Shown piece after piece: positions 1,800 to 4,365 of a DNA stretch of 64,000 nt. Within the stretch, counting starts at the first letter, position 1; each line of letters opens with the position of its first letter. The stretch covers positions 1 to 64,000 of the forward strand of contig NZ_JAGSOI010000004.1 in the NCBI RefSeq assembly GCF_023684405.1, given 5' to 3'. This DNA comes from Methanococcoides seepicolus. GTDB taxonomy: Archaea > Halobacteriota > Methanosarcinia > Methanosarcinales > Methanosarcinaceae. The notes beneath the pieces were generated by a model, which ran no database searches, had not been told where the DNA came from, and saw nothing but the letters and a program-made list of their open reading frames with translations. The position numbers and the translations under genes are program-made.

Positions 1800-1975
1800 T
1801 GCATTGCCATATCTCCGGCATAGCCTATACAGAGAAGGGGGAAAAGAACCACATGGTGCTCCGGGAATCGGACTTTAATTATGCTGACCTGATGGCAGCG
1901 TTTCGGGGGTTTGGATTGATGGGGCTTGTGATATGCGAGAGTCCGAAACTGGAGGAGGATGCAATGCTGCTGTAG
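1800..1975 (+). pseudogene. Endonuclease IV-like (TIM barrel) C-terminal fragment, copy 1
   Basis: The frame encodes LHCHISGIAYTEKGEKNH and, later, GLVICESPKLEEDAMLL before a TAG stop. This matches the C-terminal metal-binding end of archaeal endonuclease IV/sugar-isomerase-like TIM barrels (H-x-H and the ICESP segment). A second, diverged copy lies at 3922-4365. The first ~30 bases after 1800 are almost identical between copies and similarity then drops, so the duplication is old. The N-terminal three quarters of the gene is absent here. The fragment joins the MazF remnant at about 1800. Confidence 0.65.
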
Positions 1976-2049: not shown

Positions 2050-2138
2050 GTTATCAGTGATAACATTATATGCATATCACAAAGTAAAGATAGGTATCAC
2101 TGATAAGTTTAAGTAGTTATCATAATATAGTGATAACT
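2050..2138. promoter_or_regulatory. Operator-like inverted repeats before the AbiE-like pair
   Basis: Three related motifs sit in the 93 bp before the antitoxin start: a palindrome GTTATCAGTGATAAC at 2050-2064, a near-palindrome TATCACTGATA at 2095-2105, and an inverted repeat AGTTATCA-8 bp-TGATAACT at 2115-2138, ending 4 bp before the ATG at 2143. All share the half-site TTATCA/TGATAA. AbiEi antitoxins of type IV systems are known to repress their own operon by binding inverted repeats, so autoregulation is the natural reading. Binding itself is inferred. Confidence 0.6.
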
Positions 2139-2142
2139 GTAC

Positions 2143-3174
2143 ATGATAAAAAAAGAATCAATTGAGCACAAAGAGATCCTGAATTACATCAAAGATAGCC
2201 TGGGCATCTCTTCCGATCACCTGAATACCAGTCTCAGCACATCATATGAGTATTACGTGAGCGATCTACCCCTCCGCCCGGATGCATTACTGGAAGACAA
2301 TGACACCATATACCTTATAGAGATCAAGTCAAAAGCTACCATCGATACGGTCGCAAGGATGAACCTGCTTCGTGATCTCTGGCTGCAGAATGAAGAGATG
2401 GAAAAGAGGAAGAGCATACAACTGGTCGTTGCTGCAAAATCATTCCCTGAAAGGGAAAAACAGATAATGGACCAATTGGGTATCATTATGCTAAAACTTC
2501 CCTGGACATTCAAACCCGGCAGCAATGAACAGTTCGGGTCCAAAACCCATCGGATCACATCGGACAAATCATGGAAAATAGTATCCCGTCTGTTGAAGGA
2601 GAAAAAGACCTCGATACGCCAATTATCACTCCTCGAAAATGTATCATATGGATGGGCACACAAAACGGTCCAGGCATTGATGCGGCAGAATATTGTGAAA
2701 CAGGATCACAACCACGTGAGCATTTCAAACGTGGACAAACTGCTCAATGGCGTTGCATGGGAACGCCCGCTTGCAAATCTTAAGATCGATGAGATCCGTA
2801 TACCGTTCAGCGGGTCCATGCATGCAGCAAGAGAGATCACAGAAGCCTTTGCAATGCAGGATAACATGCCTGTGGGATTCACAACATACACTGCAGCATC
2901 ACTTTACACAGGTTATGCCGTAAGGCATGATGCGGTCTATCTATACATGAGAGATGAACATCTTGACCATTTCCGGGAATTATTTGAGTCCCATTCGGGA
3001 AATACCATAAAGGCAGTGGTCTATAGGCCTGACAGGGACGTATTCCAGGATAGCCGCGAAAAAGAGGGAATCAGGATCGTATCACCCTCGCAGACACTTC
3101 TGGACCTGGCCGGAATGGGATATTCTGCAATGGACATTACAAAAGAAATGGTTTCGATGTATGACACGATATGA
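2143..3174 (+). CDS. AbiEi-like antitoxin with PD-(D/E)XK-like N-terminus
   Basis: 343-aa protein of three parts. Residues 1-115 look like a restriction-endonuclease fold: RPD47 followed by strand residues and E60-I-K62, the spacing of a PD-(D/E)XK motif. Residues about 140-200 contain a winged-helix-like segment (SWKIVSRLLKEKKTSIRQLS, then VSYGWAHKTVQALM). The C-terminal part (TTYTAASLYTGYAV, VYLYM, VSPSQTLLDLAGMG) resembles the AbiEi C-terminal domain of type IV antitoxins. It overlaps by 14 bp the nucleotidyltransferase gene that follows, the usual order of AbiEi and AbiEii. The role as antitoxin and repressor is inferred from context. Whether the N-terminus is an active nuclease is unknown. 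The protein is longer than common AbiEi proteins. Confidence 0.65.
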   Translation: MIKKESIEHKEILNYIKDSLGISSDHLNTSLSTSYEYYVSDLPLRPDALLEDNDTIYLIEIKSKATIDTVARMNLLRDLWLQNEEMEKRKSIQLVVAAKSFPEREKQIMDQLGIIMLKLPWTFKPGSNEQFGSKTHRITSDKSWKIVSRLLKEKKTSIRQLSLLENVSYGWAHKTVQALMRQNIVKQDHNHVSISNVDKLLNGVAWERPLANLKIDEIRIPFSGSMHAAREITEAFAMQDNMPVGFTTYTAASLYTGYAVRHDAVYLYMRDEHLDHFRELFESHSGNTIKAVVYRPDRDVFQDSREKEGIRIVSPSQTLLDLAGMGYSAMDITKEMVSMYDTI

Positions 3175-3910
3175 AAATATGGGCAATATAATCAGATATT
3201 CCTTAGATGAATTGGAGGTAATTAGCCAGTACCTTCATGAAAAGGAAGAAAGAGAGGATCCAACAACTGTGCTCATTGGGGACTGGGCAGTGGATTCATA
3301 TAACTCCTGGTACGGATCCATCGACATAGATCTCATAACGAACGCAAGTACACGAAAGAGCTTAATGCGTCACCTGCGAAATGATCGTGGTTTTACACCA
3401 TATAAGCTGCCAGGGATACCAACGAGTGTAAAAAAGGAAACTGAAGCAGGTCCGGTCATCATTGATTTTGCAACCAGGCAGAAGCCCTTTCCTTTTGAAG
3501 GGAAGGACATGTCTTTAGATTTCAGCATTCTTAACGGGAACACAGAAACAAGGCAAATTCGGGGAGGGATCGAAATGGCAGTACCAAACCGGGCAACATT
3601 GCTTGTTTTGAAATTGAAGGCCGTATGGGATCGCAATTATCGAATTGCTCATGGGACAAGTGATGATATTGAATGGGAGACAGGGAAGCTAATAAAAGAT
3701 TATGCAGATGTTCTTGCATTGATCGATCCCGATCATGGCGGGGAGCAGATAGAGATCTCCGTACTAGGCAGACTAATGGAAAAATACCCATTTCTCGAAA
3801 AATGTCTCACTTCAGCATATAATTCGGATGAAGGGATAGAGAAGTATGGCAGGATGTCACAAGATGATGCCAGATCCATTATCGACCGGATGATATCCTT
3901 GATCCATTGA
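3161..3910 (+). CDS. AbiEii/AbiGii-like nucleotidyltransferase toxin
   Basis: 249-aa protein of the nucleotidyltransferase fold. LIGDWAVDSY corresponds to the LIGG-x-A-V start of the family, with Asp replacing the second Gly. SIDIDLI supplies the metal-binding pair D55 and D57, and VIIDFA supplies the third acidic residue D102. The C-terminal segment LKLKAVWDR and KDYADVLALI is typical of AbiEii/AbiGii and related proteins. AbiEii-type toxins transfer nucleotides to RNA (tRNA in studied relatives). The gene overlaps the antitoxin gene by 14 bp, so the two are co-transcribed. An alternative ATG lies at 3179. Confidence is high for the fold, moderate for the toxin role. Confidence 0.7.
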   Translation: MTRYENMGNIIRYSLDELEVISQYLHEKEEREDPTTVLIGDWAVDSYNSWYGSIDIDLITNASTRKSLMRHLRNDRGFTPYKLPGIPTSVKKETEAGPVIIDFATRQKPFPFEGKDMSLDFSILNGNTETRQIRGGIEMAVPNRATLLVLKLKAVWDRNYRIAHGTSDDIEWETGKLIKDYADVLALIDPDHGGEQIEISVLGRLMEKYPFLEKCLTSAYNSDEGIEKYGRMSQDDARSIIDRMISLIH

Positions 3911-3921
3911 TCCAACAGTGA

Positions 3922-4365
3922 CACTTTTACGAAGAACTTGCAGACGAGGGCATCAATGTGGTGCTTCTCCCGGAGACCACCGGCAAACCGACCCAGTTAG
4001 GCGATCTGGAGGAGACCCTGATGATGGCTTCAGCCATCGAGGGGGTAATGCCCTGCATAGACTTCTCACATCTGCACGCACGCAGCTGCGGGGAGTATAA
4101 TACTATAGAAGAGTTCCGAAGCGTTTTTGAGAGCGTGGAAAATGCGCTTGGAAGGGTTGGGCTGGACAGCATGCATTGCCATATCTCCGGCATAGCCTAT
4201 ACGGAGAAGGGGGAGAAGAACCACCTGCTGCACCAGGAATCGGATTATAATTATATCGACCTCATGGCAGTATTTCATGAGTTCGACATAAAGGGGCTTG
4301 TGATCTGTGAAAGCCCGAATCTCGAAGAGGATGCCCTTCTTTTGAGAAATACCTTCTCAAACTAA
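3922..4365 (+). pseudogene. Endonuclease IV-like C-terminal fragment, copy 2
   Basis: The frame from an in-frame TGA at 3919 to a TAA at 4363-4365 encodes 147 residues: FYEELADEGINVVLLPETTGK, GDLEETLMMASAIEGVMPCI, DFSHLHAR, MHCHISGIAYTEKGEKNH and VICESPNLEEDALLL. This is the C-terminal half of a deoxyribonuclease IV-like TIM barrel, with metal-ligand segments E-T-T-G, D-F-S-H-x-H-A-R and H-x-H. The N-terminal half is missing upstream, where the AbiEii gene ends 12 bp before. A GTG at 3958 could in principle start a short product. I regard it as a remnant of the gene into which, or next to which, the toxin-antitoxin pair was inserted. Confidence 0.7.

Follow-up and report, generated by a model that had tools for sequence, protein, structure and literature searches.

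A probable AbiE/MenAT-type toxin-antitoxin operon of Methanococcoides seepicolus with a NucS-like domain on its antitoxin

Do two overlapping genes near the start of a contig of the methanogen Methanococcoides seepicolus form a toxin-antitoxin operon, and what would a nuclease-like domain contribute to the antitoxin? The genes lie on contig NZ_JAGSOI010000004.1 (assembly GCF_023684405.1), whose first 64,000 nucleotides, forward strand, are the window analysed here; the window begins at the contig start in a 2.80-Mb genome that is 99.97% complete. The first gene (2143..3174, plus strand) encodes P1, a protein of 343 residues in which profiles, a structure model and hhalign delimit a NucS-like PD-(D/E)XK domain, a winged helix and an AbiEi_2-like antitoxin domain. 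The second (3161..3910, plus strand) encodes P2, of 249 residues, an AbiEii/DUF1814-type nucleotidyltransferase toxin according to Pfam AbiEii and hhalign. We regard the pair as a probable toxin-antitoxin operon of the AbiE/MenAT (DUF1814) kind, under its own regulation and belonging to an archaeal lineage in which the antitoxin bears an added NucS-like PD-(D/E)XK domain.

The AbiE-type gene order and overlap that the first-pass annotation had described at this place proved real. The antitoxin gene stands directly upstream of the toxin gene, in the layout of co-transcribed genes, and the two share 14 nt (3161-3174); exactly this length recurs in all 46 homologous pairs measured, a set that spans Methanosarcinaceae and other families of the phylum. 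Within the class, 46 of 238 genomes have a P1 homologue, and a profile detected one in 42 of 393 genomes drawn from across the phylum; relatives within the host's own family, the Methanosarcinaceae, include Methanolobus psychrotolerans and Methanosarcinaceae (ANME-3). Every intact P2 examined is preceded by P1. Several loci (L010, L016, L021-L023, L038 and L040) retain the antitoxin but have a toxin that is broken, truncated or not found, as would be expected if P2 is a toxin. No known phages or plasmids carrying the pair were found, nor did a scan of viral contigs find any.

The putative toxin, its partner and the operator

Pfam AbiEii matches P2 at 23.1 bits (cut-off 22.5) and 13 of 23 relatives, and by hhalign P2 is homologous to the partner toxins of AbiEi_2-type antitoxins (98.1%, E 1.2e-13). 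Motifs I-IV of DUF1814 (hG[G/S]x(n)DhD, K..R, +DxxD), as defined in earlier work (PMC3985639), are all present in P2 and, position 41 apart, are invariant in 48 homologues. Motif I is Gly40-Asp41 (GGG GAC, 3278..3283), which is Gly-Gly in the other 47 homologues. Motif II, S53-I-D55-I-D57 (3317..3331), has its serine and both aspartates invariant in 48/48; the same holds for K151 and R158 of motif III, K151-L-K-A-V-W-D-R158 (3611..3634), and for motif IV, K179-D180-Y-A-D183 (+DxxD, 3695..3709). The third acidic residue, D102 (3464..3466), is likewise found in 48/48, and the nucleotidyltransferase residues D55, D57 and D102 named in the first-pass annotation are thereby confirmed as present and invariant; all these motifs are on the plus strand. 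They assign P2 to the toxins of the AbiE/MenAT superfamily, save for Asp41 of the window copy. Motif III is comparable to the COG4849 motif KLxAaxxR (PMC3985639), and sequence comparison puts S53 where MenT3 has S78 and MenT1 has T39, residues that are phosphorylated when the antitoxin neutralises the toxin (PMC11375011).

The winged helix of P1 (residues ~139-200; 2557..2742, plus strand) is its most conserved part, with 61% mean identity, and was identified through Pfam HVO_A0114, matched by 31 of 36 family members; its position after the N-terminal domain is as first read. The antitoxin domain that follows (residues ~201-343; 2743..3171, plus strand) is matched by hhalign to an alignment of short antitoxins that contains a Pfam AbiEi_2 member (97.4%, E 1.2e-11), and a direct Pfam AbiEi_2 match for this domain is absent. 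The AbiEi-like C-terminus claimed earlier therefore stands as a kinship with AbiEi_2-type antitoxins and falls as a canonical AbiEi_4/COG5340 identity, for which hhalign gave 9% and aligned the winged helix alone instead of winged helix and C-terminal domain together; no AbiEi family is among the Pfam families listed for the 36 P1 members.

With the AbiE system of Streptococcus agalactiae (AbiEi COG5340/AbiEii COG2253, DUF1814) the pair shares the leading position of the antitoxin gene, the winged helix with an antitoxin domain, the DUF1814 nucleotidyltransferase motifs I-IV and inverted repeats in the promoter (PMC3985639). It differs in the extra N-terminal PD-(D/E)XK domain of P1 and in an operator unlike in sequence and layout; moreover, outside the winged helix P1 has no detectable relation to AbiEi_4-type proteins, and profile comparison alone does not link P2 with archaeal AbiEii. 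The AbiEi_2/COG4861-COG4849 pairs, in which we take AbiEi_2 to be the same as COG4861 and which include the Mycobacterium tuberculosis MenAT with antitoxin Rv0837c, have in common with P1/P2 both the antitoxin domain and the toxin, homologous by profile in hhalign, as well as a motif III like KLxAaxxR and the S/T-x-D-x-D site. Unlike P1, the short AbiEi_2-type antitoxins found here have 192-241 residues and no N-terminal nuclease-like domain, so that the module is either a gain in the P1 lineage or a loss in theirs.

Upstream of P1 lies an operator of uniform construction, which the first-pass annotation did not mention, as it did not mention the Gly41->Asp change of P2 or the losses of E60 and K62 in relatives described below. 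The perfect palindrome TATCAGTGATA (2052..2062) precedes by 43 bp a second one, TATCACTGATA (2095..2105), recognised by its TATCASTGATA conservation, and exactly 12 nt after the latter starts another element, TATCA-N8-TGATA (2118..2135). Between these two proximal elements, within the 12-nt gap of the composite site, is a TATA-box-like TTTAAGTA (2108..2115, plus strand), TTTATATA in most relatives, whose position and conservation suggest a promoter role. Of 54 homologues, 53 have an exact TATCASTGATA in front of P1, with 0.015 expected by shuffling, and 49 have TATCASTGATA-N12-TATCA. Successive palindromes are spaced by 43 bp in 34 of 43 pairs across homologues, and in 39 homologues a distance of 36-37 nt separates the end of the final palindrome from the P1 start codon. 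Searching the 238 genomes for the exact composite pattern gave 29 sites, 26 of them directly before a P1 gene; the reversed control gave none. AbiEi and Rv2827c are established autorepressors that act through inverted repeats (PMC3985639, PMC7319586), and by analogy with these, and from the position of the site, P1 would bind its operator.

The genome holds 13 palindromes. The composite site is found only in the window, and a genome-wide operator regulon is not claimed, since the other 11 palindromes are isolated. Two viral contigs have a composite-like site before unrelated genes. Of the three exact composite sites in the 238 genomes that do not precede a P1 gene, one is at L105 (1736-3604), roughly 2 kb away from a P1 locus. 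There a copy of the operator and its upstream flank stands before a different pair, whose products are a MarR-like protein with a double winged helix and a nucleotidyltransferase of the DUF6036 family, which may be read as operator capture or duplication. The other two, at L104 (~1253) and L106 (~3456-3509), are solo operators with no P1 gene and probably remnants of lost modules.

The N-terminal domain of P1

The first-pass annotation had seen a restriction-type nuclease fold in the motifs RPD47 and E60-I-K62. Both are present, as R45-P46-D47 and E60-I61-K62, with the putative catalytic residues D47, E60 and K62 encoded at 2281-2283, 2320-2322 and 2326-2328 (plus strand). Among the 36 family members, Pfam NucS_C is matched by 11 (best E 1.4e-5), the NCBIfam NucS model by 14 and PDDEXK_10 by three. 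By hhalign, NucS_C-type archaeal proteins align with A1 residues 43-125 (probability 72%, E 3.4e-5) over both the D and the E-x-K motifs. Against PDB sequences the sole match of the family profile was NucS 2vld, at an E of 0.78 that is not significant alone; this alignment sets E60-I-K62 of P1 opposite E174-L-K176, and D160, E174 and K176 are among the functional residues of Pyrococcus abyssi NucS (PMC7343888). An AlphaFold model of P1, built from four close sequences, predicts for residues 1-120 the expected order of elements (helix 7-20, strands 48-52 and 55-64, helix 67-81, strand 91-100, helix 103-112, strand 115-118; the first strand not resolved), and in it the aspartate would open one strand and the ExK lie in the next, as in the alpha-beta-beta-beta-alpha-beta core of PD-(D/E)XK nucleases. 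The five best PDB matches returned by Foldseek for this block are all NucS/EndoMS, with probability 1.00, the closest at ~2 Å over ~75 columns and none with an E-value below 1e-3. Because profile matches, profile-profile alignment and Foldseek, three independent comparisons, agree, the reading of P1 residues 1-122 (2143..2508, plus strand) as a NucS-type PD-(D/E)XK core is supported at the level of sequence and model.

NucS/EndoMS is thus the best structural and sequence match for residues 1-120, with which it shares the core and the D-ExK residues. In contrast to NucS, P1 lacks the two-domain architecture, having the NucS_C-like core only, fused to the winged helix and antitoxin domain, and the full triad is often absent from the family. 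On contig C70 (31911-32228) of the same genome (G000), a second, unlinked gene encodes a protein that scores above the Pfam NucS_C cut-off.

From these components we infer the following activities. P2 would arrest growth through nucleotide addition to RNA, probably tRNA, or to another target, and the C-terminal domain of P1 would neutralise it by binding, by induced phosphorylation of the invariant S53, or by both. The winged helix would repress the operon via the palindromes flanking the TATA box. The N-terminal domain would most likely add DNA binding, sensing unusual or foreign DNA, and nicking or cutting would be possible in those members that keep D-E-K, the window P1 included.

A number of observations weigh against such an operon and against its nuclease-like module. 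PADLOC has no model matching P1 or P2, and this analysis found no link to phage resistance. The window's own P1 gives no match to NucS_C, the connection passing via relatives; the P1 model is fair for residues 1-120 only, with predicted local distance difference test (pLDDT) values mostly of 57-84 in this block, lower around residues 28-44. The P2 model is too poor to use, so the toxin fold rests on sequence. Lastly, 20 of 55 homologues lack part of the D47/E60/K62 triad.

The triad is nevertheless informative about the role of the domain. D47 is kept in 53 of the 55 homologues, E60 in 45 and K62 in 43, and since they are kept while mean pairwise identity of the domain is only 33% (winged helix, 61%; C-terminal domain, 55%), the motif is beyond chance, which is ruled out as its source. 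All three residues are found in the window P1 and in 35 of the 55. On a tree built without the N-terminal domain the minimum number of changes is 6 for E60, 10 for K62 and 2 for D47; D-E-K is present on nearly all deep branches, with losses recurring near the tips, and the triad is probably ancestral. In L010, L011 and L013 (Methanosarcinaceae) a glycine replaces the glutamate, two of them having an intact toxin. Because relatives with an intact toxin have repeatedly lost the triad, the pair can persist without catalysis and DNA cutting cannot be essential to the basic toxin-antitoxin cycle, while D47 may be structural; no pattern linking triad loss to toxin decay was visible by eye. Four genomes hold distant toxin-less P1 homologues (L134 1620-2636, L135 1653-2696, L136 2111-3160 and L137 2278-3312) that keep the N-terminal domain with a degenerate triad and lack the operator palindrome. 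Their neighbours are an RPA-like gene and/or a GMP-synthase-type amidotransferase gene, and they look like domesticated regulators.

These changes could also be accommodated by a domain whose catalysis is dispensable and which, as a module that binds DNA or protein, serves only to strengthen operator binding or antitoxin dimerisation, an explanation to which we give slightly under even chances. E60 or K62 has been lost repeatedly as D47 and the hydrophobic core remain, the toxin-less homologues of the four genomes retain the domain with its motif degenerate, and the operator is long and repeated at a 43-bp period, all of which would suit a binding role. However, retention of D-E-K on nearly all deep branches exceeds what pure binding would lead one to expect.

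State of the window copy

The exceptional residue of motif I raises a further doubt, namely that this genome's module has already lost its function, with Gly41->Asp disabling the toxin and the locus in decay. We hold this to be a serious prospect, somewhat short of evens. The window copy is alone in the substitution, position 41 being glycine in 47 of the 48 homologues and lying within the nucleotide-binding hG[G/S] motif, and gene fragments and a transposase-associated gene flank the locus. Nevertheless, in S. agalactiae AbiEii G49A is non-toxic and G50A, the change equivalent to the second glycine, is still toxic (PMC3985639); therefore Asp41 may or may not disable the window P2. The remaining toxin motifs and the operator are intact, and the one substituted base might reflect a mistake in sequencing or assembly. 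Hence the toxin of the window may be weakened by its Gly41->Asp, as far as can be read from sequence, in a pair that we continue to regard as a probable toxin-antitoxin operon.

The locus is enclosed by a 163-bp direct repeat derived from the 3' end of a TIM-barrel gene of AP-endonuclease-2 type (AP_endonuc_2); its left copy (1800..1962, plus strand) is 82% identical to the right one (4172..4334, plus strand). In relative G093 (locus L109) the pair is preceded by an intact AP-endonuclease-2-type gene and followed by a 3' fragment, and it looks as if the pair had inserted with duplication of the gene end. Farther upstream in the window, translations suggest a TnpB-like open reading frame (255-1394) and a short MazF/PemK-like fragment (1545-1787), and a search of the first 8 kb found no RNA elements. 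At relative L110 the pair is beside apparent type I restriction-modification genes, as read from open reading frames.

Cutting, regulation and significance

A stronger claim for the N-terminal domain would be that it is an active nuclease, making P1 both an antitoxin and a DNA-cutting effector and giving the operon two defence modes. It would account for a complete and probably ancestral D-E-K in the window and in the 35 homologues, for D47 being better conserved than any other polar residue there, and for the alignment of E-x-K with E174/K176 of P. abyssi NucS. On the other hand, E60 has changed at least six times and K62 at least ten on the tree, intact-toxin lineages included, the domain is the fastest-evolving of the three in P1, and P1 lacks the DNA-binding domain that NucS carries separately. 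We find an active nuclease rather unlikely on this balance. More doubtful still is a bifunctional antitoxin-nuclease, in which the NucS-like domain of P1 would sense and nick or cut invading or abnormal DNA, and P1, once engaged with that DNA, would leave operator and toxin, freeing the growth-stopping nucleotidyltransferase. A last alternative makes P1 chiefly a regulator of transcription and denies that the pair is a toxin-antitoxin system, as the toxin-less homologues beside housekeeping genes, resembling plain regulators, might suggest; it is improbable, because these homologues form a distant branch without the operator, whereas in the main branch the genes are adjacent, the overlap identical and the toxin motifs invariant.

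The probable toxin-antitoxin operon described here defines a widespread archaeal branch of AbiE/MenAT that is missed by the PADLOC defence library. New in it is the combination of a DUF1814 toxin with an AbiEi_2-like antitoxin bearing a nuclease-fold domain and with a highly uniform operator, a uniformity that makes binding and regulation readily testable. Moreover, the natural series that runs from the full triad through the broken triad to the toxin-less copies could serve as a probe for the role of a nuclease domain on an antitoxin.
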